From positions 434,001 through 498,000 of the forward strand of contig OZ017756.1 in NCBI GenBank assembly GCA_963969365.1: DNA of 64,000 bases, read 5' to 3'. The position numbers were made by a program, and so were the translations under genes. Positions 17,801 to 62,000 of this stretch are shown piece by piece. The stretch is from Asterochloris sp. CNOR1 (lineage: Eukaryota > Chlorophyta > Trebouxiophyceae > Trebouxiales > Trebouxiaceae). Positions within the stretch are counted from its first letter, which is position 1. Each line of letters begins with the position of its first letter. The notes under the pieces are model-generated. The model made no database searches. It worked only from the letters and a program-made list of their open reading frames with translations, and had not been told where the DNA came from.

Positions 17801-18612
17801 TAATGACCCTGCACTTCAAGTGCAAGCATCGCATGGGCTCGCTGTACAGGTTCATATTCTCTTACAGGCTTCTAGACTTCGACTACGACAAGCAGCAGCC
17901 CAAGAGAGGACGGCCGGCTGGCACCAAGGCTGCAAAGGCAGGCGCTGGGGAGCAAATAACGCTGCCATGCTATGGGGTGGTGGAGTTTGACTATGTGAGC
18001 GAGCTGCAGTTGGACCCTGAGGTGCCACAGTATTTCAAGCCTTACAGCTCTTTCTACCCCGCCGTGGACAGTTTCACATCGGATGGAAAGCTATTCAATG
18101 CCACGCGTGCAGACAAGCACCCCATTGTCCCCTCAATAGTGAGGACCCTGCAGGTCATGCCAGAGCGGCTCACCCCAAAGCTGTACTCAGTTGTGGACAC
18201 CCAGAAAGCCCTGTCAGGCTTTCCTGCAGCCGCCAAGCCCTTTGCAGACAAGCTCACTGCCTTGGATGACAACTGCCCCCCAGATGAGCCCAGTGCAGAG
18301 TTTTGGACCATCAAGGCGCTCGAGTGGGAGCAGGTGCCCAGGAAGGCGCGGCACCTGCTTGCAAAGCTTCAGCAGTTTGTCATGTTGCTGGATTATGAAG
18401 AGTATGCTTATGCAAAGCCTGTTGCAGCTGAACCCCCAAAGCTGGATCCCCCATCTTCCGAGGTGCAGCGTTCTGGGGCTCTGCCCCCTTCCCGGGGCTT
18501 AGCTTGGGGTCGCTCCAGGCAGCTTCCTTTTCCTTATTCACCAGTTCACTTCAAGGCCAAAGTCCTGGTGCCGTTCAGCGCGCAAGCCTGTGATGAGGTC
18601 CACACCGCATAG
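14872..18612 (+). CDS. Crinkler/RHS-type P-loop ATPase with nuclease-like C-terminus
   Basis: Multi-exon plus-strand gene. The N-terminal exon (14872-15027) is a charged helix starting MDAQRLENKL, and another helical exon lies near 15325-15432. The exon at about 15621-15907 carries the Walker A motif FVITGQPGVGKTFWLIWLL. Then come RLVKEGRPVLWHDRNGYHLC (16235-16340), the VNQVVPGRPHACDE / YMLGSSAS block (16395-16520), HSPSMSRYKEFRKGT with MPPFELEELRHL (16940-17045), and LQRLQKIGGVPRDIFKD (17250-17300). This order matches the ATPase of Crinkler (CRN) and trypanosome RHS proteins. The C-terminal exon (about 17868-18612) has a basic RGRPAG patch and YFKPYSSFYPAVDSF...LFNATRADKHPI, the segment that in CRN/RHS proteins belongs to a restriction-nuclease-like domain. 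Such proteins are proposed as effectors or conflict-system proteins; the role here is unknown. It looks largely whole, but several joins were not fixed. Confidence 0.7.
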
Positions 18613-20365: not shown

Positions 20366-23300
20366 TCAGCCGCTCTGCCTACGCTTGCCAAGCAGCTTGA
20401 AATCACTGCTGTACTTGCTGCATAGCTGCTGCAACGAGCTGACTGTGCTGGTGGCGGGAATGCGCTCACGTTCCATTTCTAAAGCCCCGACAACAGCTGC
20501 CATGGTGCTTCCCAGGGCATCCATGCGGTTCTTGACCTCAGCAGCAAGGCCATTCTTGAATCTTGAGAAGGCCATGCTGCTGGCCCTTGCTTCCTTCTTG
20601 CTGCCATGCCATCTGCGGAGGTCTGAAGGCACCGCTGAGATCTTGGAGTACGCCTCAAATGCTTCTGGGACTGTCTGGAACTCTGAGAGCTTCCACACCT
20701 GCAGTTCACAAGGCGGAATGGTCGGACCAGTACACAGGCGCTCAAGCTGAAAGGCAATTGACTGCATACCTGTTTCTCGACCAAAAAGGAGTCCCTCTCA
20801 TCTGGGGCGCCCAGTGCACTGAGGGACTGAGGCGGCAGAGTAACGCCATAGCTGGCCTGTGAAGCCAGAGGCACCCACGGCATGGGTTTGGCAGATACTG
20901 GAGGCTGAACACCGGAAAGCGGCACCTGGGGCAGCATTACCACAGGGGCCAAAGGCATAGGCGTGGCCTCCGTTCCACTCAGCGTCTTGGAGAAAGCCTG
21001 CCCCTGGCAAGGGAAAGGTTCAGAGCATGGTTGATCTTGACACCTCAAGGCCACAACATTCACCATTAGTTTGGTGAAAAACTCATTTTTGTCCTTGAAA
21101 ATCCTTTCAGCGGCAATCTGTTTGTCTCATGTCTCTTGCCGCAGCTGCTTGCCTACAGCGCTCTGCAGAAGGCGACTGGCTGCTGGCGGGATGGTGCGGA
21201 GCCACTGGTCCCCATATGACTGAATTCTCAAGCTGGTGTTCTGCACAAACACCTGCCGCAGGTGGTCGATGGCGTGTAAGGGCGCCAGCAGAGGATGTGC
21301 AGGGTGGCATCGCATGCCAGCTTGGCGCAGGAGCACTGTCAAGCCTGGGATGATGCGATCCAGCACATCCTCCTCAGCCTGCAGAACACAATCAGATCCC
21401 CCCCTCCCCCCATTTGGTGATTTGCGTGAGAAGCACTGGCACCGCAGTGACCTTACCTTGAAATCAGCCTGACCCAAACGATGATTCTCCTTCCAGTCCC
21501 GTCCCCAGCCTGCCAGCCTGTGGGCTGTGTCCAGGTCAAAGATGCAATACAGGTCTGTACAGACACATGTGGTGTCAGACTCATGACTGCAAGGCACAAC
21601 ACTGGTCAGCTGGGGATAATGTTGTTCAGAGTGCACAGCATGGCCTGAGTTGCCTACCTCGCCGCCATCTTGATCTCCGCTTTGTTGATACCCACGCTCT
21701 TCGCCGCCTCCACACCATGCTTCTTGAATGTGTTGCTGACTTCCCCCTTCGTTGAGTACCCATCAAGCCTGCCACAGGGCACGCCTGCAATGTAACAAGT
21801 CACAGATGTCACCCATAGCTGTGCCCAAAGCTGTAGCATTAACGCAATGGCTCACCAGCAAGTTCAAAAGCCTGCCGAAGGTGAACGTTGAGGGTCTCCC
21901 CGCTCATGGGCTGATTCCCCTGCATGCTAGGGGCTGCAACAATGTAGTTGGTCAGATCCTCAAGTTTGATGCCCCTGTGGAAGGTAGCGACAGCCAGGTC
22001 GGCAAGCGCTGCCTGAGGACAGATGCGATGGTCTCGGTACCTGTGGCAGAGGAGGCATGATAACTTAGAACACACTGCAGCACACTGCCCAACTGCGTCT
22101 GACAGCATGAATGCGCATACCTGACCACACCAGGAATAGCCACCTGCCCGGGCTTCACAGTCTTCCCCTGCATGCTACCACAGAGGATTGCCACAGAGGG
22201 CACTGGCCCTACACCATCCTGCGCCCTCAGTGCCAGGCAGCTCCAGGGAAGCTTGCGCAGGTCATCAGAGCGGCCCAGTATGGCTGGCATGAACGTCATT
22301 GCCATCCTCAGCAGATAGGCCCACTGCCACTGCTTCTGCTGGAAAGCTGCTTGCAGGGACTGGCGAAGCTGCCCTGCGCTCAGTGCAGCATGCACCTGCA
22401 CATTCAAACAGCAACTTGACGCATGAAAGTCACAAGTAGCGGCTGGACTTGTGCCAGCCGAGCTGATAACCTGTTTCAAGGCAGACAGAGAACCTGATGG
22501 AGAGAAGTGGATGAACAAAGCAGAGCTAGGAAGCATGTCAGTTGTCTGTTCAGCCAACCCTGAGAACACCCAGCGCTGAAAACTCTTGGCCGATGGCAGC
22601 TTGGAAGCCATGGTCAGGGCAAAGCCGCCAGCTTCGTTGATTAAGGCTGATGCCAGCCCACCACAGTCCACTGACATCGACCTCACAACAGGGAGACCCT
22701 CTGAGGTCCATGCACACCTGAGCTGCCACCTGCGCATTGAGGTTCTCAGCCTGCATCTCCTTGCCACGTGCACAGACCAAGTCCCTAACTGCGTGAATCT
22801 CCAGGGGTGCGGGTACATTTGAGGTGATGCGGCCCTGTGATTACTGCTCTCTGCGGACTTCCTTGAGGTGGCACAGATAATCACTGCACACACCAGGCCA
22901 GAGTTGGGGAGGGCAAGACTTGAGTGCAGCTCAGACACTACAGTGGAGTGGCCTCTCACCCCACACTGCTGAATGAGTATCGAGCACCATTCTGCTGCAC
23001 TGCCTCATCCACAAGCCATATCAAGAACTCAAGAGTTTTGGCCTGGGACATGAGGTCGCCATCAGGGGACGCCTCCTGCTCACAGTATCTCTGCAAGAAT
23101 GGGTCTGTGTGAGCGACATGGGGCCTTGTAAGCATCAAGGGCGCTGTGAAAAACGGGATTAAAGGCCATACAGTGTCTACCTTCCAGAGCTTGGCAGCGG
23201 ATATTTCAGCCTGGACTGTGTTCTGTGGCTTAGCCACACCATGACGTACATTGATGTGCTGGGTGCATCGAAGAACACGAGCTTCCTCCTCAGGAGTGTT

Positions 23301-23736: not shown

Positions 23737-25438
23737 ATGAACAACTCAGATGCTATCTTGCAAGCCCTCCATCAGTTGGAGCACAACTTCCAAGAGCAGT
23801 ACCATCAGTTGGAGCACAACTTCCAAGAGCAGTTCCATCAGTTGGACTACAAACTGGGAAAAGGGCTGGGTGACTTGGAGAAGGGGCTGAAGGAACAGCG
23901 GCAGCTTATCATGGCACTGCAGCGTGACTCTGGTGGCATAGTTGAGAGGCAGCTGCAAGACGCCATCTCTCGCCAGTTTGGAGGACGATACTCAAAGCAG
24001 CTGCTGGCAAGGTCCATTGTTGACTTCAGCCACCTGTTTCCAGAGGACATGTTTGACAGGAGTGCCAACAAGGCCGCTGGTGCTTTAGCTTTCATCAGAC
24101 CTGCCACCCAGGTAGGCCACATCAAGCATGATGTGTGCAAGTCAGCACTTGCTGCCTTACCTCCATGGCATTACTGCAGGCCTGGTGGGCCATGTCAAGC
24201 ATGACCTGTGCAAGTCAGGTGCCACACCTCCATGCAGGCCTTGGTTCAAGGACGGGAAATTGAGCACCTCCTGGTCAGGTTCTCCAAGCTGCTTGTGAGA
24301 AGTGGTCTGGCCCCTGAAGCCACTTGGGTGGTGGATGAGGCTGAGGCAATTATCGCTACAACCGCACTGGGGAACTTCATTGGCACGCTCGACAACAAGT
24401 CGCGCCAATCCAAACCCCTCAGCAGGGTGCAGAAGTATCTCAAAGCGGACAAAGAGGACAGGGTAAGGATCTCAATGCATCCTTGCGTATGCTGCACCAC
24501 GCTGGTCTGCAGCATGCATGAGCAGCTGCCAGTGGACATATGCTAACCTGGCAACCCCAGAGCAGGCACCCATGGCAGCAAGCAGCATCATCAGCCTGCA
24601 GCCCCCTGTGACAGCATGCTCTGGGTGGCCAGCCTCGCATGCTGTTGCCACACTGCATACGTCGCCTGGGCACTCAGCAGACAGCTGCACATCTGCAGTG
24701 GCCCTTGTGCTCTTGAGAAGCTCTGAGCCTGCCAGTACCTTGACAGACAATCTGCTTATACGCTGTCTCTCACAAGACCTGGATGCTGCAGTTCTTCCCT
24801 GGTCCTGTTTCAGATGCCCTGCCTCCTGAAAGCTGCCTCAAGCCTGCAGGAGCTCGACATTCGCTACCTCCAGCTTGCAGTCTGTTGGTAGCATCTCCGA
24901 ATGCTGTGAACTGGTGCTGCAGGCTAGCACATTATTCACCAGTACAAGGGCAGCACTTACGCTGCAGGCTACAGGCTTTCTCATGAATTGTTTACAGGTA
25001 CAATGGATGGAGAACTGTGATGGGCCTGGCATTCTTGCTCTAGTAAGTGCAGCCCGCTCCATGGACGGCCAACCCTACTTTGATGCAAGCGACTCAATTC
25101 AAGAGCTGGACGATGTCATCAGCAGAGGAATGATGCCACCTGACGAGCTTGAGATAGATTGCAGAGGAAAACTGAATGTCACAAAGCGCAAGTTTGCATA
25201 TGTTGACATAGGAGAGATAAAGAGCAAGCACAAATTCGGCATAGGCATTGTTCAGCTGGGAATCAGACTGTCTGTGGTAGCCTGGCTGTTGGGGAAATGC
25301 TGTCAAGTAGCTGACCCAGATGTCTGTCGGGTTGGGCGCATCTTCATTCCTCGAGGCAATAATGACAGTCCCTCATCCAGTGCTCAACCTGCAGCTCTCC
25401 AGAAATGGCGCTACAGCATGTATGTGCACTATCTTTGA
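23737..25438 (+). CDS. Coiled-coil protein with PD-(D/E)XK-like motif
   Basis: Exon 1 (23737-24111, ATG at 23737) starts with an 11-residue heptad-like repeat HQLEHNFQEQY/F and a long coiled coil (residues about 10-60), then RYSKQLLARSIVDFSHLFPE. Exon 2 (24238-24462) continues LLVRFSKLLVRSGLAPEATW and KSRVQKYLKADKEDR-like sequence. The last exon (about 25010-25438) holds DASDSIQELDDVI, ELEIDCRGKLNVTKRKFAYV and DIGEIKSKHKFGIGIVQLG; E-x-K followed by a helix with a Gln resembles the nuclease motif II/III of the PD-(D/E)XK fold. Middle exons (around 24800-25000) are uncertain. I recognise no named family. Its place next to the CRN/RHS-like and Crypton-like genes suggests one accessory island. 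It could be transposon-borne or a second effector-like gene. Confidence 0.5.
23769..23850 (+). repeat. 33-bp coding tandem repeat
   Basis: Units at 23769-23801 and 23802-23834 are nearly identical, and a partial third unit follows. They encode the 11-residue coiled-coil unit HQLEHNFQEQ followed by an aromatic residue, so the repeat lengthens the N-terminal coil in frame. Confidence 0.9.
24112..24237 (+). repeat. Direct repeat in intron 1 of the coiled-coil gene
   Basis: The phrase GGCCACATCAAGCATGATGT with GTGCAAGTCA (from 24116) recurs as GGCCATGTCAAGCATGACCT with GTGCAAGTCA (from 24188), and both are followed by a CTCCATG...GCAGGCC acceptor-like string. The second ends in the true acceptor at 24237. 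Confidence 0.65.
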
Positions 25439-40665: not shown

Positions 40666-43600
40666 ATGCCGCCAAAAAAGGAGGCACCTGCCAAGGCCCC
40701 GGCTGAGGAAACCGGAGCAGATGATGAAGAGAGGGAGCTGGTGGAAAAGGAGCTCGTCATCACCTACCTCAAAAGCAGGCTGGGCAGGTGCGGACTTGGG
40801 GGTGACTGACTTCCGCCAAACAGCTGGAGACCAAGCAGGCAGACATATGGTGATGCCAGCGCTGGGTTGTGCGAGGGAAGACTGCTGAGGAGACTGTTGT
40901 CGGTCCAGCCTCGCAGTGCTCTGCTACCATCTGACTGAGCAAGCAGAATGCCACTTGCAAAGCAGCCAAGTCCCCCTTATGAAATACCTGCATGTGGAAG
41001 GAGCTGATTGTCACCCTCCTCAAGGGGCACCTGGTCAGGTGCGCACAGGGGCAATGCAGCAGCTGGGACATCAGCAGCTGTTGCAGGCTTGGTGCAGCTT
41101 TGCACTGCATTGCTGTCCTGCATGCATACCTCTGGTTGGGGGGACCTTCTGGGCTACATGTAGGTGCTGATTTGGTCACCCTGGGCTGCACCTGTACATC
41201 TGTGCAGCTGCCTGCGTTCAGGCACAGGACGCGGGGTGGGGGCCCTGCTGGTGGACAGTGTGTGTGATACACTTCAGTCACTGAGACGGCGTGCCGGCAA
41301 CCTGTGCTGCCCGCAGGACCCAGCCAGGGCACCTGCAGCTGCAGGAGCGCAGCACCAAGCTCTGCCGTATGACCCCTGTTTGCCTGCAGGCATCAGAGGC
41401 GCACGGGACTGCTGCTGTGGGCATTCAGCCTGCAGATACTTGTCCAGAGCCAGCCTCAGCAATTTGGAGGTCATGCGTTCTGCTTGCAGGAACCAAGAGT
41501 GTGCCGAGCTGCTGCTGGTTGGCCAACATGAAGCTCTATGAGGAGACCAATCTGGCTGACACTTAGTTTTCTGGTGAAGTCAGCGGCATAGCACCCATCT
41601 ATCCTGAGTGCAGGTACCAGGAGCGCGGGGAGCTGCTGCTGGTGGAGAACGTGAAGCTCTGCGAGGAGCTGGAGGTGCAGAAGGTCAACCTCCGCGACAT
41701 CAATGAGTTCCTGACCAACGAGCTCAAAGCGCGCAGCCTTGCGGGGGCTGCCCTGGAGCAGCGCATTGAGGACCTGGAAGTGGAGCTGGAGGGGCTGCGG
41801 GAGAGCACCGCGGTGAGCAGGGCGTGCTTTTACATGAGGGAAAAAGATTTTGTAAGGGCTGCAAGAAAGCCAATCTTGGGTCAAGCCACAGGGCTTGATG
41901 ACGGTGGGCGTCATGTCTTTGCGTGATGTGACCTGTAGGCAGAGATGAATTTTGGAGGTGGGCTATATGGGCAGTGAGCATGCCTCTGTGCTGCTGTGCT
42001 GGTGGTGGTAGCACGGCACACAGCCTGTCAGCAAGTCACAGCACCGGACTCGCCCTGGCTCTGTGGTGCTGTGCAGGCGGAGGTGGAGCGCCTGCATCAG
42101 GAGAAGGCTGCGCAGCAGGAGCGACACGAGGGGATGCTGGTGGAGATGGAGCGCAAGGTAACATCATAAAGCTGACGGGACCTGGTGGTGCAGTCCACAC
42201 GCTGGTCGCATGTGCAGTGTCTAGCAGCAGGCTCACTGCGCCGCAAGACTCGTCTTGAGGCCTGAATTTTACTTCACTTGACACCATCAGATGTTGCTGA
42301 TGACAAAGACAGAGGTTTGATGCTCGCTGCCAGCAGCCTCACGTCCTCACCTGCGGCAAAAGTCAGCTGCACTTCCAAGACCAGCCGCAAGCTGCGGCTG
42401 GTAACAGACATGCATCACCGCTGGTGCATATGCTTTGCTGCAGATCAACAACAGCACAGGCCAGACTGTGACAGCGCCCAGGCTGCCCTCCACTGCCCTG
42501 GCGGTTGGCCTTGACCTGGCGCTGGGCGTGCTCCATCGCCTGAAAGTGGTGCTAATCACCAGGCTTGTCCGCCAACTCAAATGTGGCAGGCCTGGCACCT
42601 AACAGAGGAGCATTGGTGCAGGTCAAGACCAGCCGCGAGTTCCTAGAGCAGAAGGACACCTTGGAGCTGCAGCACCGCCAGCTGCTGGACACGCTGGCTG
42701 CCGAGCGCAAGGCCTTCGACAAACAGATCAGGTGGGGCGGCCTTGGGGGTGTGGTCTGAAGCCCTGCTTCACAATTGTCTGGTGGCTGTTGTGGCATGAG
42801 GATAGCCCTCCCTAGCTTGTCCTGGATGCTGGGTGCAAGGCTGTTGCCAATTGGATTCAGGTTGGGCAGTACTAGGGGACCAGTCAACGCTGCAAGCTGA
42901 GCTTGGACTGTGGGCCTGACAGCTGGTCACCATAACAGCCATGACAGCTGACTATTGGTGAGCAGGGACTTGTCACATGTTGTCGTCATGAGGCCAGAAG
43001 AAGCAGCCGCCAGGCTGTCTGCCACCAACAGAATGTCCACTGACCCCGAGACCCTCCTGCAGCGACCTGGAGAGGCAGCATGTGCAGGACAAGGACCACT
43101 GGAAGAAGGAGACTGCTGCACGCGTCCGGGACACCAAGGAACGCATGCAGAAGCTCACGGAGAACCAGCTGGAGACGCTCACCAAGCGCACCATCCTGGA
43201 GAACGAGCAGATGGATGCTGAAATGAGGTACCAGTCGCGCCAGGTGGGGCTGGATGGGCGAGATGGTGGCATGGCCTTCTGCAGCAGGAGTTGGGAAACT
43301 AGAGGCTGGAGGCATGAGCAGGGACGGGGCGCCACTCGTGCATGTGGGTGTTCGAGGACTTTACTTGATGAGCTAGTATGGTTGGTGAAAAGCTCTGTCT
43401 TGCTGCGGATTTGATGAACATTGACATTCTTACGCAAGGCGGTTCTGTCAGAATCAGGCGTTTTTGTCGAAAACAACTCTTTGTGCAGGAAGAGGACACT
43501 GTCTTGCATGATCGGGCATAGGTGTTCGTGATGGGTCTGGGCTGTCGTGAAGGTGCCTGTTGGCCATTGTACGCCAGAACAGCTTGAGGTCTCCCATGCT

Positions 43601-46600
43601 GCATCATCCAGGAGCATCAGCAGACAGCGGCACTGAAACGCCTGGGGAGGGGACATGCTGCAATGTCATAATGTTTGCAAGGGCAGGCGTGAGGTGGTGG
43701 ACGACCAGATGAGCGCAGGTATGAGGTGCCACTTGCGCCAGGTGGGGTGAGGCCAGGTACTGCAGCATGGTTAACAGTGAGGCCAGGCACAGCAGTGTGC
43801 AGACCAGGTGCACCCAAGCAACATGTTATTCAAGGGTGGGAAGGTTGGCCCTAGTGGGGACGCCAGAAGTTGTGTGAGCTGTGCAGCGCGTTAAGTGTTG
43901 CACAAGTCCCCGCAAGGTGCTGGACATGTCGGCCCTGCTTGTGCAGTGCTGCCTGGAGCTGGTATGTTTGCTACCAGACAGTGTGCTGCAGACAAGCCTG
44001 CTGCTATGTATCAAGGGGCTTTGCTGCTGTGTCTCACATGAGCGAGCAATGAGTCTGCAATGTGCAGGCTGTTGGTCTGCACAGCTCCAGACTCTTGCCT
44101 TTAACGGAGGGAAAATGGAGACTGTCGGGTCGTCATTGTCTTGGTCACCGAGTGATTGAATGTTTTAATGAAGGAGCCATGTATTGCCTTCGTATACGAT
44201 TCCACACATGTGCTGTGCAGGTAGAGAAGCTCGTGGACAGGAACAAGGAGGTGCTGGAAGAGAATGCGGGCTTGCGGCGCAAGTATGACGTGCTGGAGCA
44301 GTCTGAGCACGAGCTGGCGCGGCGCAACATGGTGTACCAGAAGACCATCAAGACGCTGGTGAGGGCAGGTGTCAGCCTGTTGCACACCAGTGATGCTTGC
44401 TGCCGTTGCTCAGCCTGCTGGCATGCAAAGGCCTTGACTCGCTGGTGAGGCAGTGTTAGAGGTCAATGTCATCACAACACCTGTTGCAGCCCCTTTTGCA
44501 CTTGGCGGCCACTTAAACACTTAGCTGTGCACATTGACTCGCCGCCCTGTGTGTGCAGCTGTCCAAGCTGATGGCTCAGAACACCAACCGCCAGGGCGTG
44601 GAGGATCTGCTGGCCAAGCTGCAGAAGGAGTGCAGCCACCTGGAGGGGGAGGCCTCCAGCTTTCAGCAGGACCTGGCGGCCAGCCAGACCAGCTGTCAGC
44701 AGCTGCAGGGGGCGCTGGCGGAGAGCAGGTGGGCTGCAGAGTTGCATGCAAGTCGAGTGGACTGGGCATAGCGCTGCTTGTTGTGTTTGCATTTGCATGC
44801 AGCAGGATGACAGGGCGAGCCAGGACACCTGCAAGCAGCTGCAGGGGCTGCTGGCAGAGAGGAGGCGGGCTGCAGGAACGAATGGTGCCTGCAAGGCAGC
44901 AAGTGAGGTGCAGGGCGTGGAGCCGCCTGTGTCATTTGCGCTTGCATTTGGCCGCCTGCGAGCAGCTGCAGAGGACGCTGGCAGACATTACTGGACTGCA
45001 GGGTTGCATGATGAGTGCCTCGCAAGCAGCAAGTGGGATGTTGGAAAGCTGCCAGTTTCATTTGCGCTTGCAGCAGGTGATGGCGACCAGCCAGGCCATC
45101 TGCAAGCAGCTGCAGGGGGCGCAGGCGGACATTGGGCTACAGGAATGTATGGGGGTGTGCCTGGCATGCAGCAAGAAGGATGAGGCTAGCATGGTGCTCT
45201 GCCTCACAGTGCTGCTTGTCAGCAGCTGCAGAAGTGGCCAATGGATGTTGCACAGACATGTCTTGCTGTGCTGCATGCAAGCAGTTGCAGCAGTAACCAG
45301 CCTCTCTAGCAGAGTGCAGATGGCCAGGGTGGCTGGCGGGCGCTGTCAGAGGCAGGGGGTTGGGAAAGAGATGCGCTGCAGTTTCCTGGCATGTATCAAT
45401 TCTGGGGGTAGCTGCCACCGTTGCTTTCGAATGGATGCGAGCCGAACATTTGCTCTGCTGCCTCAGCAAGCCCCCCCCCTGGTAGTTGCATGTTTGCTGC
45501 AGTCTGCCTGCACTTGCAGGGGCATGTCAGTGCAGACGGCAAATTGTGGGTGAGGCCTGCAAGCAACCGCAGGGCTGGCTGGTGGTGGCATGACAGGAAA
45601 AGAAACACATGCTGTGTGAAGGTGCTGGGGTGGTCATAGCAGCTATCAGCAGGGAGTGGCCTAGTAGTGCCTCTGCACGACAGGATAACTGGCAACAGGA
45701 AGGGGCAGCCTGGAGAAGCAGACTCTGGTGAGGCTGCAGGTAGAGCTCTGGCACAAGCAGGTGGACTGAACAGCGGTGTTATAAGAAATGCACCTCCCAT
45801 TGGGTTTTATTGACGGGGTACTGCAGGCGCAATGGCTGTTGCACGACTCTCAGCCTGACTCTCACAGGCTGCTCTGCCCATCAATTGCAGACGGCAACAG
45901 GATGAAAGGGACAGGTTTCACAGCGACGTGGCGCGTTTCCTGGAGAATTGCCTTAGCAGCATCCGTCTGCAGGAGGCGGCTGCTGCAGGACCTGGGCCTG
46001 CTGCAGACCTGCCACTGGCAGGTGAGCCCGTCATCATCAGCAGCGTGATGAGCCCTTGCTGCCAGTGGCTGAACACCTGGCTGACACATTCTTGATGCCG
46101 CTGCTTGTTGAGCCCCTGTTTGCCAGAGGAGGGTCACCCTGTGTGGCCGGTGGCTGGTGACGGTCTGTTTGCTGCGGGTGGCGAGCTCGTACTGACCAAA
46201 GCCCAGCGCAGTTCAGACAGGAATGCTGGACAGGAGCCGCGGCGTTGGAGTGAGCTGTGCAGCAAAGTTGCCTTGGCCGAAACGTCGCTTATGAGGTACA
46301 TCAGGAGCAAGTCTTGCTGTGCGATGCGCAGGGGTCGGTCCAGTCAGGCAGCAGGAGATCCTGCAGCACCTGCTGGAGCAGTGGCAGGCTCGCCCAGCAC
46401 CCACTGCTGGCAGCACAGGGGGAGGAGTAGGTCAGCTCTCAGGCGCCGGCAGGACTGCAGCAGGTGTGTTCAGAGCACCTTGTCACCAGCATCCTTGCCA
46501 TACTTAGGGGACCTCTTGTGCAGATGGGGCTCCTTCAAGCAGTAGCAGGCTTTAGCTGTGTGTGTGCAATGATTGACTACTGGTAGGCCCGCTATGTCGT

Positions 46601-47297: not shown

Positions 47298-50200
47298 TTA
47301 AGTGATGAGGGTCCGCCCTTGGGCCACCTCCTCATCCATCAATGTAGCATACAGTTCCTGCAACCTCTGTGTGATGGACCCACGGCGCCCGTCGCCAATG
47401 ATCCTGCCATCAACTTCCACGACAGGCGTTTGACCGCCAAAGGTGCCCGTTGCGAATGCCTCATCCGCGCCGTACACCTGCATGTGCGACGCAGGTCTGA
47501 GGTGGCAGCAGCAGCTCTGCACACTTGCAGTAGCAGGTAGTAGATGTCAAGACGCAGGCTGCAGAGCTGCACTGCAGCTCCCAGAAGACAGCTGGTTGCA
47601 TCAAGGATGAGGGTGGGCGTCAAGACTCTGTATTGTTGGGTGATCTTAGGGGCGCCCCACAGAAGGGATGTCTGCATTGGCAGCAAATGGTTGCAGACCC
47701 CGCAAGAAATTGCTGGCTAGCTCCCTGGAGCGGATGCTGATGGCTGCCTGCAGTCACCACTCGCACGCCATGGCATCCTATCAGGTCTCCTGTCCCCCCG
47801 CTTGCAGTAGTGCCTCACCTTAGTGATCAAGGAGTCCAGCTGCTGCCTCACCTGAGTGAGGAAAATGTCAAACCAAAGGCTGTTGGTCCAGTGCTACTGG
47901 ACGCAGCCCCTCAGTCCCCAGGGAGGGACGATGCCTCACCTGAGGAAGGTGGAACTGCAGCTCCCTGATGCTTGGCATGGCCCAGCGCAGTGGTTGTTTG
48001 TGCTGCGTCCCCACTCACACCTCAGAGGGACTCCATGCAGTGGGCTTGCTTTTCACGCCAGGCACTTGCATGAGCGCGTCCCCCTCCCCCCTCGATGTGA
48101 GACATGGTTTCGCACCTGAGTGAGGGAAAAGTCTAGCTCTTTGATGGGGATGTTGTTGGCACGGCACAGCTCGATGCAGTGGGCCCGTGTGATGCCAGGC
48201 ATCTGGTATCTGGTGGTCGCTGTCCAGACCTCCCCGTCGCGCACGATGAAGAAATTGACGCTGTTGCATGTGGCCACAAACCCATGGGGGTCCAGCATAA
48301 GCCCTTCGTCTGCGCCAGCTCTATTTGCCTACAGGCAGGAGCTGATGGTCAGATGCCTGCAGCAGGCTTGTTGTTGCTGCAGCATGTGAATGCAGAGAGT
48401 GTGGGCAGCCACAGCGGAGCACTGTCCAGCACTGCACATCCAGGGCAACTTTACAATGGCTGACACCCTGTCGAGGCTGCCAGGAGGGTGCAGCCATGCA
48501 GAGAGGTTGCCTGTAAGCTGCAGCGCGCCTCAGGGAAGGAGCACAGCGAGGACAGGTCGCATGGTGCGAGGTGCATGCGGGTGTGTCCCACTGAGTGGCC
48601 AGTGATGCAAGTCAGCTTTTCCTGGCAGACAAATGACACAGGACGCATGCCAGGCGGCTCAACTCATGTATACAAAGATCTAAAGCGAGCAGTGCTGGAC
48701 AGATCGGTAAGCAATGGCATGCTGCTGGGCGGAGAGATGTCTGCACCCACCTGGATGCAGGCTGTGATGCAGTTCAGTTTGCTATGGCTGTTCAGGTTGG
48801 GGTCCTGCACATCCGGCGCCCCACGCCGCACATGCACAGTGAAGAGGCGGATGCCCTGCTCCTTGGGCTTTGCAGCAGCACGCTTGTGCTCTGGGATGAC
48901 CACAATGGTGGGCAGGCCCACTGTGATGTTAGGGTTCTGGTAGGGCGTGGGCTTCCTGCAGGAGCAGCGTTCCTGTGGTCAGCAGGGCTCCTTGACTGCT
49001 GTAAATGAGGTCATCACAGAGTGGGAGGGCTGCAGAGGGGCATGCAGACAGCAGCAGCCGTTCCTGGTCAGCAAGCCACGTGTGATGCTGGGTAGGAGCT
49101 GTCTTTGTGCCCAGAAGGGCCCGCACACATGCCAAGCCTCCGTCAGGTGGCAGCTGTGGGTGGGGTCACAATTTCACAAAGCGTGCCCCCGAGGTGTGAC
49201 ATAAGGGATGTTTGTCAGCAACACCCATGAGACATAGACCATTGCAGCAGTGGCAGGCATCTGCCCTCCCAGAAAAGAGGGCCTTTGCAGGAAAGCTGTG
49301 CAGGAGAGTACAACAGGCTCAGTTGCACTGACAGGGGGCCACACATAATGCAGGAACAGGTGAGAAGCGCTTGTATATGGTTTTTGAGTTCACACCCCCG
49401 AAGAACGGGATTGTGCACAGCAGGGCATATAGCTTTACTGGGCAGAGCTGAGATGGAATGATCTTGCAGGTCTCCGGCAATGGGTGGCCACAGCCAGGAT
49501 GTGGCAAAAGACACCACACAAAGGCCAGGAGTAGCAGATGCATCGAGCTTGACGTGCATACACAGAGCTACACACAAGCCACAGCTGACCATCTAGCTTG
49601 CCAGGATGCTGGTTGGCTCTTGCATGCAGGTCCAGGCCGTGCAGCAGGGCTTCACTGGCAGGCTGCGCATGTCCATGGCGCTGCATGAGATGCCACCACA
49701 GCTATTCAATGGCCACTTTGGTGGCCCTCATCAGTACATGTGACACGCGCCGGGGGGCACTCACAAGCCGCGGGTGACCATCAAGCGAATGTGGATGCCG
49801 CTTGCCTCTTGCATGCCATTGGCGTCCACAGTCCGGTAGATCAGGTCCTGCAGCTCACTCTTGGTCAACCCTGCAGCAGCAGGAAGGGGAGGTGGCACCA
49901 GCAACCTGCATCTGCAGAAGCTGCATGGGATTTACTCATGCTGGACCCATACCTCAACCAGCAAACAATTTAGGCACAAGTCAGGTGTTTGGAGCTGCAT
50001 GGCTGCTGGCGATCGTCATATGCATATCGTCTGTTGGGTCCAGTGGGCATCAAGAAGGCCCCAGTAAGCCTCAAATACAACCCTGCCTACGCCAGCAGCA
50101 TCTGCAGGAGCGCAGGCAGCGTCCAGGCTGACCCTTAGCCGCAGCAATGGGCATGGCACAAACATGATGCAGTGCCCATTACAACCACCTGGGATGCAGT

Positions 50201-53200
50201 CACTGGTCAGGCGCAAGCAGTACTGACAGCTCACCCAGGTCCATGTCGATGGCCTTGGCGCCCTCAAATAGCCGCTTGAGGTGGCGCCGACCGAAGGCAA
50301 GTACGCCCCTGTGCAAGCGAATTCCCTCCCACACCCCGTCCTGCAGCATTTAGGGGCGCTGCCAGGTTAAGCTGCAGGCAACTACTGGGTCAAGTGCCAC
50401 CACTGCAGTGTGCTGATGCAGCGACACAGATGTGCATGTGCAGGAGGGAGGTGTCTGCATGTCTGCAGCGGAACAACAACGCTGTGCTCAGCAATGCTCC
50501 TTGCATAAAGTAAGGAGCCAGACAGTACTCAAAAATCAGCTGGGCAGGCAGCAGGCTCACCCCAAGCATGAAGCCGGAGTCAAAGACTGAGACCTTGGCA
50601 TGTGGCCGCCACACCAGGTCAAAGGCCCCTGCACAGACAGCTGGTCCAGCTCAGCCAAGCACGATACTCAGGGCCCAGTTCACCAGGGTACAGCCAACAT
50701 GGCCAGCAGGGCTAGCTCAGCGACTGCTTTGCCTGCTGCTGTGCAGCACAAAACAAGCCAGGAACATGCACAGCAATGGGACAAGGTAATGCATTCAATG
50801 CTTGCATGTGCACAAAGTAAATGTGCAGCCCGGTAGATCCTGTATGCTGGCATTCAAATTAGTCAGGGGCACGGCATGCCACAGTACTGCTGATGCGCAG
50901 ATGTACTTAGGCATTGCAAGCATGCCAGACAGACTCTTGGCAATCGGGCCAGACCTGTGACGCCATCCCTCAAGCCGATCATGATGTCCTGGTTGCGGGG
51001 GTCGTCTTCAAAGACATGGGTCCCCCGCCTTTCTTTCTGTTTGGACACGGCTGTACGGCCCGCTTCTTGGCTGGAAGCGTTTTGCTGCGTCCCTGCAAGC
51101 AGGCACCTAGAAGTCTGGGTCCTGCATACACTGTGCAGGGCTTCTCCAGGCCTTGGAGGCTGCTGCTACTGCTGCCCGCCAAGCAGCAGCTTGGAATTGT
51201 GGGACCTGGCGCACCTGCAGGAGCCCTAGCAGGTGGGTCGCCAGCAGCAAGCGAGTTGCAAAGGCTGCTGCTGCCTACCTCAGGCAGCAGCTGGGACCAA
51301 AGGAAGGGTTCAGGTGAGCGGGTGCAGGCCAATGCCATGCTGCAGGGGCAGTTGAGTCTGCTCAGCGCAGCTGGTCACCCATCTGGTCTTGTCATGTGTC
51401 TTGGTCTCAACATCTCCTCGCGCTGGCAGGTAAGCTTGCCAGTCACAGGCTGCACATCAGCAGCGTTGCCCTTTTGGGCAGTCAGCAGCCTGACAGTGGC
51501 GTGCCAACCATTCTCACCTTGCTGCAGGCCGCCAGCCTCTGCGACTCTAGACTCTTGCAGCTGCGATGCTGACAGCGGACGGAGAGCGCGGCTGCGCAGT
51601 AGCTCGTACAGGGGACGGCACTCCTCCAACAGGGGCTTCAAGGCGTCTGGCAGTGGGCGGAGGGGACGCTCCTTTGACCGTGACCCAAAGCCTGCAGCAG
51701 GCAGCAGGAAGGAGTCCGCTGCACGGCACAGGGGTGTTAGACGTGCACCTCCTTACTGAATGTACATGATAAGTGCAGCAGGGCAGCGGCCACCTGCCTG
51801 TTGGGACTTGAGTAAATTTGTACCACCACGAAGCCCAGCAAGTGTCCTCTTAGCCCGCACAACCTTGACTTGATGAGAAACCCAACCTCCCCAAAGACAT
51901 GGTGCCCAGCCAGCAAGGTGTTTGCAGCAGGGCAGCCGCACCAGCTTTTCGGACTGTAGCGTGAGAGGCAGGCAGGGGCCAGTCCCTGCGGAGACGACCC
52001 ACCAAGAAGAAGAACTTCAGGTTGTCACATCACAGCAGCACCTGCCTGTGGCATTGTGAGTTGATGCGTACCACCACGGAGCCCAGCAGCCGTCCTCAGG
52101 CCTGGCCCCAGTTGGCCACGACAGCATTGCGCGGTCCCAGGGGATGCCCAGCGCGGCGCACAGCGCTCGCAGGGTCCCCTCAGGCTGGGACACCAAGTCC
52201 TCTGACAGCACCACAGGTGGGGGCTTCCTGCAGCAGCAGCGCGGCGGGCCCATCAGTGAAAGGCTTCCTGCAGCAGCAGCGCGGCGGGCCCATCAGTGTC
52301 AGCAAAGCTTTGGGCAAAGAGCTGTGATATTGGCCACTGAGCTGGCTGGGTCCTCGGAGACGCTTACCGCAAGCAGGGTAGTCTCAGGCTGAGCAAACCC
52401 TGGGGGGCATTCTGTGTTATAAAGGGTCTGTTTCTGTCTGCAGGCAACAGCTGTCTGCAAGCACAAAGAGCAGCTGCACACGTTCCAGCTTGGCAGAGAC
52501 CCCCACTGCAGTGCTGCAAAGTGGGACTACAATGCACAGGCAAAGCTTCAGCCAGTAGGAGCATGGCCCTCCTGCGGCAGCCAAGGCCAGCAGGGTCTCT
52601 CAGGCCTGGCACAGTGTGCAGGCGGCTCATTCCCAAGCAGCATTACTTGCTGTAAATCACTCATGAAATGTGTCAGTTCTGGGCCAAACCCTGAAGACCA
52701 TAGCATGTGACCACCAACTCACCCTGCTGCTCGCAGCTCGCTGTAGATCTCGCACAGCATCGGGAAGCAGGTTTCGTGCAGCGTGGGCTCCAGCACCTCA
52801 GCAAAGCTCTGGATCACGCCCTGGGGGCTGCGCAGGAGCAGCATGTGGTGCCCCTGCTGCAGGAGCTCCCTGCCCAGCCCCACGCGGTGCTTGGCCATCT
52901 GCTTGACATAGCGCACCTGCAGGTGCGGCGAGTGGACATGGGATTCTGCCTGACGGCAGCGGCTCTGCGCCAATTGGCGCTTGGCCATCTCTGTGTGCGC
53001 CAGCACTTCTTCTTGGGACATGCAGAAGGCAGCCCCTCTGGCTGCAGAGGCCTATCCCTGCATAGGCCGCTCTGCAGAGATCTTATGCAGGAAAAAAACC
53101 CTGCAGGACACTGACAGAGCATAGGCCTGCCTGCAAGGGTCAGTTACTGTAGGGAACGGGCCCCTCCTTCAGGGAACAATCTGCGGGGAGCAGGCAGAGC

Positions 53201-55150: not shown

Positions 55151-55547
55151 TAGTGACTTGCTCACACCGCTGCTTTGTACTCAGCTGCACTGTTTGGCTG
55201 CATGGTTTACACTGCTCTGAACATGGCCAGTGGAGCATGGCCCTGCATGTGGATGGTCTCCTGTCAGCTGCAACACGAGGCTGGAATCTGAGGATTGAGG
55301 CAACATTGCCAGCCAACCCACATGACACAGAGGTCTGATAAACATGCATGCATGCATGCAGCAAGGCAGAAGACCAATGGTGGTTGCCGATGAGCAAGCT
55401 CACAGTGTGGCGAAGGCATCACTTCCGCCATGAGCTAGTCTGCTCAAAAGAGCGCTGATGTGTGTGGCTGTGGCCTCGTGCAGTGTGGAGCATCATCCTT
55501 GAAGACCAAGTCGAGGGCTTGCAAGCTCTCAACCTGGTCTGCAGCAT

Positions 55548-55925
55548 GGTGCTACACACCGCAGGAGACCCCAGCTGCAGGCATCAATGCTCTTGCAAGC
55601 AGGCCAGGTGTCGGCAGGAATACTAGTGCCATCCACCACACTCTGAGGTTGCTCACTGGCAAGAGCCTTCGGTCTTCCTCTTGCTGTATGCGTGAATGGA
55701 TGTGGTCAGTCCTCTCCCTACTGGGTAGTGCAGAGCACCTCGCCAAATCCAAGCCCTCAACTTGGTCTACAAGGTGAGGCCTGCCACCTCGCAGCCGCTC
55801 AATGCGCTGCTCATGTGCAGATTTGCATCCCTGAGCTGAGCTAAGTCTCTTGAGAATGCACAGGCTAATGACAGCTGCACTTAGTGGCTTGCTGGCATAA
55901 ATAGCGCATGTGGTCATCACCTCTT
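55548..55925 (+). repeat. Diverged repeat, copy 2
   Basis: Partner of 54986-55150, see there. It includes GCTCTTGCAAGCAGGCCAGG, CTGCCACCTCGCAGCCGCTC and TTGCTGGCATAAATAGCGCA blocks. No coding content is recognised. Confidence 0.6.
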
Positions 55926-56841: not shown

Positions 56842-57190
56842 TTACTGTGGGGGTTGCTCAGGCCTTACAGCGATGCTGTGCAGCATGCTTTGCAGGCTCT
56901 GAACTATCAGCCGGTGATTCAAGCTTATGAAAAAAGCTGCTATCACTGCCTTCAGGAAGTCATCAAATGCTGGGTCAAGCACCACTTCGGAGGTGGTGAC
57001 CATGTTGACCAGAGACGGCAGCGGCCGCAAATCTGTGAGGACAGCGACGGCAACCTCCGGGATGCTCTGCTCAGCCCAGTCCACCAAAGTAATCTCCACC
57101 TCTCTGCCAACCATCTGTAACCCCTGCCTGATGGTGTGGCGCCTGCCGAAACCCTTTGGGCCAAAGGGTACCTTTGGCCCAATGGGTGTG
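56842..57190 (-). CDS. Unrecognised ORF with an inverted copy beside it
   Basis: On the minus strand an open frame reads RRHTIRQGLQMVGREVEITL, VDWAEQSIPEVAVAVLTDLR and PSLVNMVTTSEVVLDPAFDD, then a hydrophobic KAVIAAFFISL, ending at 56842. The composition looks like real protein. The opposite strand just to the right (57190-57330) encodes a diverged version (RHTVRQGLRMAGREVEVF, EGAVAVVAGLRPV), so the segment has been duplicated in inverted orientation. No family recognised; it may be a gene fragment or a piece of a mobile element. Confidence 0.35.
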
Positions 57191-57330
57191 GATACGCGCC
57201 ACACGGTCAGGCAGGGGTTAAGGATGGCTGGGCGTGAGGTGGAGGTGTTCATTCTAGACTGAGCCGATGAGAGGATCCAAGAGGGCGCCGTTGCTGTCGT
57301 CGCAGGGCTGCGGCCAGTCTTGAGGGGCTG
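57015..57330. repeat. Long imperfect inverted repeat
   Basis: Innermost 25-bp arms at 57118-57142 (TAACCCCTGCCTGATGGTGT then GGCGC) and 57196-57220 differ at only two positions. Between them lies a further palindromic string (CCCTTTGGGCCAAAGGG). Weaker similarity extends each arm to about 140 bp, covering the duplicated coding segment described for the neighbouring ORF. Confidence 0.85.
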
Positions 57331-58885
57331 GCCGGTGTGTGGTGGTATTCTGTGAGTCAGAGCCGAAGCCTTTGCCTCTGCTGCATGGCTGCATGCATGC
57401 ACCCTGCTGCTCAATTGTCAGGCAGTGAATAGGCTGCCAATATGTTGACGACTTGTTGCTGGTCCTGCAGTTGACATGGAGCTGCTGGTGGAGATCACAG
57501 CACTGGTGTTGGTGCACTCCACACTGCAAGAGACATGAAAGGCAGGCATCAAGCCCCATCCTACACTGTTGTGATGAACACATCCTGAAACAGCTGAAGT
57601 GAGTCCACTATGTGCATGAGGGAGGTGGCTGTTGTGCAACGGCCCATGCTGATGTCGCATTGGCCTCAAGTGCTACTGTTAGCTCAACGTTCAGGCTGTT
57701 TGCTGCTTGGTGCTACACAGGCTGCACTTATGATTGTGTGTGCATGCTGCAGGGGAAGCAGCCTGTATGAAGAGCCTTTATAAGGCTTTTTGGCTCTCAA
57801 GGCAGCTGACACAAGCTCTCTCCGTATCGCTGACTCTGTGTGCTTCTGCTATAGGTGCCTCAGCAATCGCGGCAATAATCACAAGGAGCAGCATCATGAC
57901 ATGCAGGAGTAGCACAAGCTGCTGCGCCACCTGCTGTGATGCTGCACCTTTGAGAACTTTTGCCGCCTTTGCTGAGGCACCTACAGAGGAGGAGTGCAAG
58001 CTGTTGCACCAGCTGTCTTGAAGCCATTGGTCTCAGCTCCGAGGCTGAGATTTAGCTCCGAGGCTGAGCATCCGAGGCCAATGGCTTTGAGACAGGTGGC
58101 ACAACAGCTTGCAAACTCCTCCTGGTCCTGAAGTGATCAGTTGGCCAGGGGTATACGACTTGGGAGGTCACATGAGCGAGTGGCGTCCTATGGCTGCCAG
58201 TGCAGCTTTGTCCATGAGTCCGCTACTGGCTAGATGTCCTCGGTGAGCACACACGCAGCACTCATATTAGCAGCCATGTCGCAGATGTGCTCAGAGCGCT
58301 CCATGCAACAGTCTTATTGCAGCCTGTTTCAGCTGTCCAGAAGCGGAGGTCCACTTGTCTCACACGCAACAGCTTCTGGGCTACAAGGTGGAGCTGCCTG
58401 ATGAGGCAATGAAAACACTTCATCTTGCGTGCTTCATGGTGCCACCCTGCAGAATGGTTGCAGGGGCCTAGCCTACTATGAAGCTGAGCAAGTGCGTCAG
58501 TCAGTGCCTTGTTACAAGGGCAGCCAGGCCCACAGCTTGAATGCAAGAGCTCTACATTGCATGTCTGTTGCAAAGACATGTTGAAAAGACAGATCATGAA
58601 CATGCAGACTCTGAACTATGTAGTCATCTCTGCAGCACCTCCTGCTTCATAGCAGAGCAGCATAGGGCCAGGAGAAAGCGTGGACCTTTGGCCAACCTTC
58701 CCAACCAAGCGCTGCTCTGCGCATGCTGTGCTCCACAACTATTGTTGCACAGGGCCTGGAGGCCTCCTTTGCACTTCCTGCTGCCAGTTTTGATGGCTGT
58801 CGGCGCTGCTGGCATTTAAAGCTGTTCCATGATGCAAGCTTGATGCCTTGCATATCGGCTTATTGCGCCCAGGCCTGGCAAGAAG
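57331..58885. other. Gene-poor stretch, nothing recognised apart from a small palindrome
   Basis: Open frames on both strands reach about 110 codons without conserved features. A hydrophobic frame at 57778-57999 (minus, LLLHVMMLLLVIIAAIAEAP) is probably chance. A 10-bp inverted repeat AAGCCATTGG / CCAATGGCTT at 58021-58087 encloses two copies of CTCCGAGGCTGAG. Confidence 0.4.
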
Positions 58886-59083: not shown

Positions 59084-62000
59084 GCGCCCACCCACATATA
59101 CAGCAGCAATGTTGCGGTCATCGCCAAGGTTCACAAACTTCTGGAACAGGTCAGCAACAGTGTCACGGGGATGCACGTCAAAGGTGGAACCGACTGTGGT
59201 GTCAATGAGGAGGAGGTCTGCCTGCTTGCCAACTGCAAACGTTCCCAGCTGATCTTCAAGGCCAAGGGCTCGTGCACCGCCAACTGTGGCCAGCCAGAAA
59301 CCTCCCTTGAAGTCCAGTGCCACTGAGTTGGCTTTGTCGAGCTCGGGCTGAGGCAGTGGGGCCCCGTGGCGCCCCTGAAAGCTGAGGCTGCGCAGGGCGC
59401 GGGATGCCACCACAGCTGTGCGGATTGTGTGCAGCATGCACGGGGAGTAGCCTGCAGGGCAGCGCAGGTCAGGGCCGTCCATCTCAAGCCCGCAGCTGGC
59501 TGGGGCTGCAGTGGGCCACCTCTGATGTAGAACCCCACAGTTGCAATTAGGCGCTACACAGAAAGGGGCCCTCGTGGCTGCACGAGCACACCAGGATGGG
59601 GAAAGTGACTGCTGCCCAGCAAGCTGCTCCAAATCACATGGCGGCTGCACATGGGCAATACCCTCCAGCAGTTTTGCCAAGTGGCTGCCAAATCTTAGCA
59701 GTCTGGGCTGGCTAAAAAGTCAGGTGTGAAGCAGAGGGTGGCTCTTCACAGCTGCTATTGGTTGGCGACAGTTGTCCTTAGGCCCGTCACAGCGCCCCGG
59801 TGCAGGACACAGCACACAACAGCTGTGCTGCCAGCTGGACGACAGGCGCTGCTGAGGCACCTCTCACCTCCGGCAATGTCTGTGCCCAGGCCCACTGCTA
59901 CACCGTGTGCCAACACATCGCGCACTGCCAATATCTCGTCCCCAAAGAAGAAGTTGGACAGAGGGCAGTGTGCAATGGCAGCTCCAGCAGAAGCCATACT
60001 GCTGAGCTCATGGTCCCGCAGGCAAGTGCCGTGGGCCATCACAGAGCATTGCAGGAGGCCGTGCTGCTGCAGGATGGTGGCGTCCCGCTCCCCAGGGTGC
60101 AGGGCCTCCACAAAGGCCTGCAGCAAACAGGAGGCATGTATAGCTGGGCTGTGCTGCATGGCAGAGCCTTGGCAGACCACTGCAGGGTGCGCCGCTGCCG
60201 TAAGATGGGATGTGCTATGCTCCAGCAGCGCCTGCAGCAAGGTAGCGCTGTAGATTTGACCAATGACAGGTGCTGCAGGAGCACTGCAATACCCAAGCTG
60301 CAGCATATGCATGAAACATGTTGTAGAGCAGGAGTCACATCGAGCACAGAGAGTCTGCGCTGCTGGAGGTGGTCTTCCAGGGTGCAGCGCCTGCAGACAT
60401 GCATGCAACAGGCCAGGACCAGCCTGACCTGAATGAGGAGGCTGTGCACCTGCTGGAGGACGGTGTTTCCAGGGGTGCAGCATCTGCCCAAGAGCGTGAG
60501 GCAGGCTGCAATGACCTGATTCTGACAATTGAGGGAGTGCTGCTGGGCAGAATCTTGCTCCTCAGCATGCAGTGCTTGCACATGGGCCTGCAACACAAAG
60601 GACCCAGAAGTGGAGGGCATGCTGCCAAGGGTTTGGCCTTGTCCTTCGCCCCAGCATGTGATGCCTGAATGAGGTCTGCAGCAGCACATTATGGCACTTG
60701 GACGCCAGGCGCTGGCAGGGTATTCTCCAGCATGCAGCACCTGCCAGAAGCATGCGGCAGCACAGGTCCTGACTGTCATATCTTCAGTGTGACCGGGCCG
60801 GCACCAGTCACACGCTGACATCTAACTGCTGTGCTGGGTGGTAATGTCCTGGCAGTGTCTGCCTGCCTTGTGCTGCATTGCAGCTGTGGATGAAGACAAG
60901 CGCCAGAGACATACCTTTGCACAGCAAGATTGGGGAACACAGTACTGTGAAACACAGGCCTGCTGACTTTCACATCAGCAAAATTTCGCTCAGGCCCACC
61001 TGTACCAGCCAAAGCCTTCCCTGGTCATGTTGGCCAGCCAGACAGCTTTGCAGGGACCTCATCCTGTGCAGCTGCTGCATTTGAGCAGCCTGATCACTCA
61101 GCATGCCGCAGCATGGAGACTTGCAACTGTGTCTGCAGCAGCTGCATTCCAGCAGACCCAGTTGACAAACTGCCTGCCCAGGCATGCAGCCCTCCTCAAC
61201 ACTCCTCTTCAGCGACTGCCCAGCAAAGCCACCCTGGTGCAGCATTGTAGGCCCTGGCGGGTCAGCATTCCGCATGATCGCCACCTGGTGGGTGTAACAG
61301 ACTGCAATCACATCACACCCCATCATGCAGCTGATGCTCACCACCTCATCGTGACTTTCGCTGATGTGGCTCTGCACCAGCACAGCTTGGTCCCAGGCCA
61401 CCTTGCCCAGCCCAGCCAGCAGCGCCGGCGTGCAGGTGGGCACGAAGCGGGGCGTCACCACTGGCTGCACCAGGTCTGAGCCCAGCCCCCGGACGTGCTG
61501 TATGAAGGCCTCTGTGTCTGCCAGGTTCTGCTCTGTGCTCTTAGTATAGATTTCAGGGCAGTTCCGGTCCATGCAAGTCAGGCCCACCAGGGCCCGCTGC
61601 CCCAGCTCCAGGCATATGGAGGCCAGCAGCTTGCAGGGCTCCAGGTGCAGGGCGCCGAAGAACCTGCAGGCTGGTGGAAGCATGACAAGCAATTGAGAAG
61701 AGGCATCGGTGGGCAGGAGTGGTGCACAACTGGTTAGGGTGGGCCAGGGAGGGTCTCTGTGTTTCAGTAGCAGGCCTAGGGATGCAAGCAGCCTCCCAGG
61801 TGCAGGATGTGAACATTATCCAGTCACATGCACTTGTCGGTTCATTGAAAATGTGGATTGCTATCACGCACTGACATCCAGGCTGCATGCAGGGACGGCG
61901 TTTAACCCTGCTTAGAGCAGCTTAGCATCATCTGGCATGTGCCGCCCAGCAGGCGGGGTTAGAGAGGCTCCAGCAATGGTCAGCTTGGGGACGATGACAC

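Follow-up and report, generated by a model that had tools for sequence, protein, structure and literature searches.

Introners shape intron content in algae. Internal gene duplication in eukaryotes, in some cases with introns, is termed common (Gao and Lynch 2009, as cited in the covered passages of PMC4974935 and PMC3488318). For the potato RdRp gene, the covered passages of PMC4974935 describe a tandem duplication over an intron-exon boundary that gave rise to a new intron using a cryptic donor. The same passages describe intron gain via duplication of an exon segment containing AGGT (Hellsten et al. 2011, as described there). Here, we analyzed a 64-kb stretch of DNA (the window) in which exon edges recur as decayed copies in the adjoining intron. 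As far as the covered passages describe internal gene duplication, the copies resemble it in being local duplications within genes.

Exon-edge copies in intron 1 of the labelled gene

Intron 1 of a gene that an earlier note on this DNA had labelled CFAP157 carries two decayed copies, one of the exon-1 end and one of the exon-2 start (Table 1). The gene name found no support, as the protein matched no Pfam family above the cut-off and no PDB entry, and its NCBIfam coiled-coil match stayed below the cut-off. Scans of viral and prokaryote contigs revealed no relatives of the protein. We will refer to the gene as the labelled gene.

Both copies had been claimed in the earlier note, at about 40997-41045 on the donor side and about 41490-41552 on the acceptor side. 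Pairwise alignment recovered each of them, and the claimed coordinates proved accurate to about 10 bases. The donor-side pair aligned over 49 bp without gaps (71% identity), and the acceptor-side pair over 66 columns with a single 1-base gap (79%). Each alignment spans the splice site, with GT retained in the donor copy and CAG in the acceptor copy. By eye, the exon-1 copy is open in frame throughout.

No control reached either score. The donor-side match scored 21 (72-base query), whereas 4,000 length-matched segments of other introns gave a mean of 9.95 and a maximum of 15, 2,000 dinucleotide shuffles of intron 1 a maximum of 18, and the antisense intron 9. The acceptor-side match scored 36, compared to a mean of 10.69 and a maximum of 15 for 4,000 length-matched segments of other introns, a maximum of 20 for 2,000 dinucleotide shuffles and 10.5 for the antisense intron. 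When each copy was compared with every predicted exon, the adjacent one scored highest (21 versus 13 for the next exon on the donor side, 36 versus 14 on the acceptor side). The rest of the window, searched in 400-base pieces, gave next best scores of 16.5 for the donor-side copy and 18 for the acceptor-side copy. Each copy best matches its own neighboring exon in the window, which supports a local duplication of the flanking exons over an import, in line with the earlier note, which had argued against gene conversion from elsewhere.

The layout of intron 1 from 5' to 3' is exon 1, exon-1 copy, exon-2 copy and exon 2. This order, together with the divergence of the copies (71% versus 79%), would fit two separate events. 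The most likely history of intron 1 is two separate short duplications, one over the donor and one over the acceptor.

Within the labelled gene, the survey described below matched the exon 2 acceptor, the donors after 40787, 42731 and 43243, and the donor of the exon ending at 44728, behind which an array of copies is located. One array pair, 44823-44946 versus 44950-45072, spans 124 of its 127-base spacing. Our gene finder called an array copy an exon at 44845-44902, a mistake that gene finders may make with such copies.

Table 1. Positions of exon-edge copies, their sources and related features in the window
Feature	Position	Strand	Basis or remarks
Exon 1 of the labelled gene (start codon to donor)	40666-40787	+	gene model and sequence
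Intron 1 of the labelled gene	40788-41613	+	gene model; exon 2 from 41614
Donor-side source: 41 bp of exon 1 end and 8 bp of intron 1 start	40747-40795	+	alignment, controls, survey
Decayed copy of exon-1 end with GT donor	40998-41046	+	71%, spacing 251
Decayed copy of exon-2 start with CAG acceptor	41480-41545	+	79%, spacing 124, 1-base insertion shifting the frame
Acceptor-side source: 10 bp of intron 1 end and 55 bp of exon 2 start	41604-41668	+	alignment, controls
Copy of exon end 42694-42738 with donor, labelled gene	42822-42867	+	72%
Copy of exon end 43197-43249 with donor, labelled gene	43695-43747	+	77%, spacing 498
Array of decayed copies of exon end 44659-44739, labelled gene	44795-45129	+	starts at about 44795, 44950 and 45066; 67-84% between copies
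Copy of exon end and donor 11327-11410	11412-11494	+	head-to-tail, unit 85, 82%, full tandem
Copy of exon start 5147-5219	5268-5338	-	85%
Copy of aminotransferase exon end 49759-49816 with donor	49570-49627	-	76%
Copy of sulfotransferase exon end 52033-52097 with donor	51784-51849	-	79%
Perfect 40-base tandem duplication over acceptor	52222-52298	-	37/37 bases identical

Exon-edge copies and local repeats across the window

Exon-edge copying is not special to the labelled gene. Gene models were obtained with a small two-strand gene finder trained on the window, which yielded 16 genes and, after exons of less than 3 bases were dropped, 124 introns. A first survey with 60-base edges, excluding introns below 120 and exons below 40 bases, showed that 20 of 161 edges had a match in the adjacent intron at p ≤ 0.005, with 0.8 expected and 4 in antisense. 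When p ≤ 0.02 was allowed, 12/79 donors and 13/82 acceptors matched, compared to 2 and 4 in antisense. For a second survey, edges of up to 90 bases were used, predicted exons below 45 bases were removed and introns below 110 bases were excluded. Here, at p ≤ 0.005 and with 0.8 expected, 27 of 168 edges matched the adjacent intron, and the copies lie beside their source in direct orientation, with only 3 edges matching in antisense. Recognizable copies of a flanking exon edge were found in 25 of 84 introns (about 30%). When the count was restricted to Pfam-matched genes, one of which (RINT1) is below the Pfam cut-off, 15 of 112 edges matched in sense and none in antisense. By the swapped-intron comparison that the earlier note had named, flanking-exon similarity was in clear excess within the 64-kb window.

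Six of the 27 matches belong to the labelled gene, and for one of these (44850) the predicted source exon is an array copy in its own right; two others (56104 and 55108) sit in a doubtful merged gene model. The exon part of the alignments is mostly some 20-80 bases long, and 19 of the 27 copies cross the junction or come within 3 bases of it. Spacing and identity of the copies were only weakly related (Spearman -0.31, p = 0.11). Several decayed exon-edge copies were additionally seen in the adjoining introns of a deaminase gene (59868-60602, minus strand; survey rows 60035, 60087 and 60360). The aminotransferase gene has a short donor-side copy (47849-47869 and 48113-48133, 90% over 21 bases), and by eye more copies are perhaps present at 47850-48060.

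The copies resemble neutral relics. For 23 copies, mismatches within the exon part are spread about evenly over codon positions 1, 2 and 3 (62/263, 47/266 and 62/266), and 10 of the 23 copies are frameshifted, with 23 gap columns in total. This pattern is typical of unconstrained sequence, and no coding constraint was found. Of 12 acceptor rows, 8 crossed the junction, and all 8 kept the acceptor AG; of 11 donor rows, 10 crossed it, and 7 of these kept the donor GT. Since only such junction-crossing alignments were counted, which biases the count toward retention, these numbers do not indicate selection.

Copying also extends beyond junctions. Of 357 intron-interior tiles of 72 bases, 27 matched their own intron at p ≤ 0.005 (12 antisense, 1.8 expected); none of 53 exon middles gave a match. 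Comparison of the window with itself by blastn (E ≤ 0.01) yielded 30 direct repeats at distances of up to 3 kb, 2 at larger distances and 8 inverted ones. The same search in 49.7 kb of E. coli, a weak yardstick because it is intronless, gave 1 direct repeat within 3 kb, 0 farther apart and 2 inverted, and five dinucleotide shuffles gave no direct and 0-3 inverted repeats each.

Six pairs are at least 90% identical. In four of these young cases (18922, 23769, 52222 and 56072; units 26-43) the copies stand head-to-tail, and the other two (29487 and 11346/11495) are not full tandems. A unit equal to the spacing, with similarity over the whole unit, was found for 11327/11412, 52222, 56072 and 44823/44950. 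The duplication at 52222-52298 yields two identical acceptors at a distance of 40 bases, one of which might serve as an alternative splice site. The tandem repeat at 23769-23852 (33-base unit, 2.4 copies, 97%) is in frame (11 residues) and lies inside a predicted coding exon. Long imperfect inverted repeats of about 140-390 bases, 72-74% self-complementary, were observed at 55329-55715, 57023-57315, 57849-57986 and 57987-58123; they are perhaps foldback or MITE-like elements, and one overlaps a predicted exon.

The window is eukaryotic and intron-rich, with a GC content of 54-61% per 2-kb segment. Eight of ten proteins or protein parts had Pfam matches above the cut-off (CYP38 PsbQ-like, 2OG-Fe(II) oxygenase, amidohydrolase, sulfotransferase, class IV aminotransferase, Snf7, Psb27 and DUF6816); the remaining two are RINT1, below the Pfam cut-off, and the protein of the labelled gene, without a family. 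CYP38 and Psb27 indicate a photosynthetic eukaryote, probably a green alga. A lysine methyltransferase was typed as a further predicted protein. Two other predicted genes had weak matches below the cut-off. One (21127-23251, minus strand) matched an NDC10_II domain (E = 0.0018), and we take it to be perhaps a tyrosine-recombinase-like mobile gene. The other (14872-18612, plus strand) has a long C-terminal exon and matched P-loop NTPases (DAP3, nSTAND). Scanning the 64-kb window for Rfam families and tRNAs gave no matches.

Origin of the exon-edge copies

We propose, with a probability of roughly 70%, that the intronic exon-edge copies go back to short tandem duplications of an ordinary kind, whose remnants splicing hides from the protein. 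According to this proposal, short stretches, mostly of some 25-150 bases, would be duplicated in tandem repeatedly. Where a unit lies over one splice junction, the outer splice site would stay in use, and the extra exon edge and the duplicated site would end up in the intron and be spliced out, the protein remaining unchanged because the outer sites are still used. The intronic copy would then decay neutrally. Because selection would hold the exon half, exon-edge copies should remain recognizable for longer than copies of intron within intron. Later indels and insertions would separate the copies. Intron 1 would have seen two such events, one at each end. Directly observed are the copies, their excess over the controls, their direct orientation, their neutral decay and the tandem register of young cases; from these we infer the mutational step, the splice site used and the order of events in time.

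The remainder of the putative unit was tested for 20 pairs, leaving out 3 of 23 with fewer than 25 bases between the copies. Summed over the pairs, similarity along the stretch that separates the copies exceeded the level at other loci (Stouffer 3.4-4.3 for 9 donor pairs and 1.8-3.1 for 11 acceptor pairs), with pairs 44850 and 123 carrying much of these sums; without them, the values reckoned from the z-scores are about 0.6-3.0 and 1.0-1.4. A simulated single tandem duplication, with a unit equal to the spacing and the divergence seen, predicted a mean z of 4.6 for donors and 6.0 for acceptors, versus about 1.2 and 0.9 observed (one scoring). Half of the tandem prediction was reached by 3/9 donor and 2/11 acceptor pairs. 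The intron 1 pairs gave z-scores of -0.5, 1.3 and 1.8 on the acceptor side and 0.9, -1.7 and -1.1 on the donor side. For the exon-1 copy the expected z is only 0.7-2.3, which leaves the test little power, and for the exon-2 copy the values of -0.5 to 1.8 compare with 4.1-8.7 expected. For a single tandem duplication, the rest of the unit is too dissimilar; therefore, either insertions have since widened the spacing, or the copy began as a patch.

In the latter case, exon-edge pieces of about 40-80 bases would have been copied into the intron during break repair, by polymerase theta templated insertion or template switching, without belonging at any time to a tandem unit that spans the full spacing. 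We regard such patch copying as unlikely. It would account for the length of the aligned exon parts and for most of the long-spacing pairs, which lack the expected similarity in the rest of the unit (e.g., 4422/4804 and 43197/43695, the latter with 77% identity, a spacing of 498 and z of -0.7 to 1.2 versus 8.5-12.4 expected). However, untargeted patches should also reach exon middles, which are uncopied, and templated insertions can be inverted, whereas the orientation here is nearly always direct. The tandems listed above are, in addition, in register.

Neutral simulations of duplication were compared with the counts of edge and tile hits. The first, which counted tiles, gave 0.27-0.51 edge hits per tile hit over five settings, versus 20/27 = 0.74 observed. 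The second counted events by intron; by this count the window holds 24 edge hits in 22 introns and 34 tile hits in 15 introns, with both in 3 introns (antisense, 4 in 3 and 9 in 3). With units of 25-150 bases and later insertions, the second simulation yielded ratios of 0.61 (edge to tile hits), 1.25 (edge to tile introns) and 0.13 (introns with both to edge introns), compared to 0.71, 1.47 and 0.14 observed. The settings were not fitted to the data and this one was chosen after earlier misfits; the other four settings fit worse. In nine of the ten settings overall, edge hits are too few relative to tile hits, so that a moderate excess at junctions is possible. Survivorship is the simpler reading compared to targeting. 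Thus, of the repeated duplication at splice junctions that the earlier note had put forward, the local duplication is supported, with a donor-side and an acceptor-side copy in one intron. Its specificity for junctions was not supported, as intron interiors are duplicated as well, and the location at splice junctions probably reflects survivorship and not targeting.

It appears quite unlikely that a junction-linked process, such as repair that uses a template at the junction or the transcript, copies exon edges and splice sites into the adjoining intron in preference to other sequence, and that the introns of this lineage are partly built from copies of their own flanking exons. That duplication or retention is directed at splice junctions, be it through breaks or R-loops there or because extra sites are kept for function, is very doubtful. 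The closeness of most copies to the junction, the kept AG and GT dinucleotides and an edge count above most simulated settings agree with targeting, but the dinucleotides were scored in alignments that favor retention, coding constraint is absent from the copies, duplication reaches intron interiors, and one neutral setting fits.

That the copies are functional exons, alternative or mutually exclusive, which the gene model missed is highly improbable: while several retain an intact donor or acceptor and the exon-1 copy seems by eye to be in frame, the exon-2 copy carries a 1-base insertion, frameshifts affect 10 of 23 copies, and mismatches do not cluster at third codon positions. Some weak rows (scores 14-16 over 23-25 bases; about 1 of 27 expected) may match by chance, since the sequence is GC-rich and uneven in composition, but chance is close to negligible as an account of the whole, given the swapped-intron, antisense, shuffle and E. 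coli controls and the two intron 1 matches, which already contradict it.

Comparison with known systems

The phenomenon is ordinary in kind, while its density is striking in this one window, the only eukaryotic sequence in our comparison. The literature covered, mainly freely accessible papers, showed no report of exon-edge copies at such density, and the covered passages on Coccomyxa and Auxenochlorella do not describe exon-edge copies. If the pattern is genome-wide, the introns of this lineage would be a dated record of short duplications at splice junctions, with the exon as an unchanged reference. The duplication rate, the frequency with which the outer splice site wins and the share of intron growth would then become measurable.

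Introners (PMC9860276) are dispersed copies of one element, whereas here each copy matches its own neighbor. One element in many dispersed copies was not found in this window, where direct pairs number 30 within 3 kb and 2 beyond that distance. Compared to internal gene duplication (Gao and Lynch 2009, as far as the covered passages go), the survivors here are mostly partial, consisting of one exon edge and a splice site that decay in the intron; neither a protein change nor a new intron was seen. The potato RdRp case, as described in the covered passages of PMC4974935, is alike in that a tandem duplication crosses one junction and carries splice signals, but here the outer splice site would stay in use and the copy would be lost in a longer intron. 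Intron gain of the AGGT type (Hellsten et al. 2011, via the same passages of PMC4974935) likewise turns exon sequence intronic by tandem duplication; there a new intron is formed, whereas here an existing intron would take the copy.
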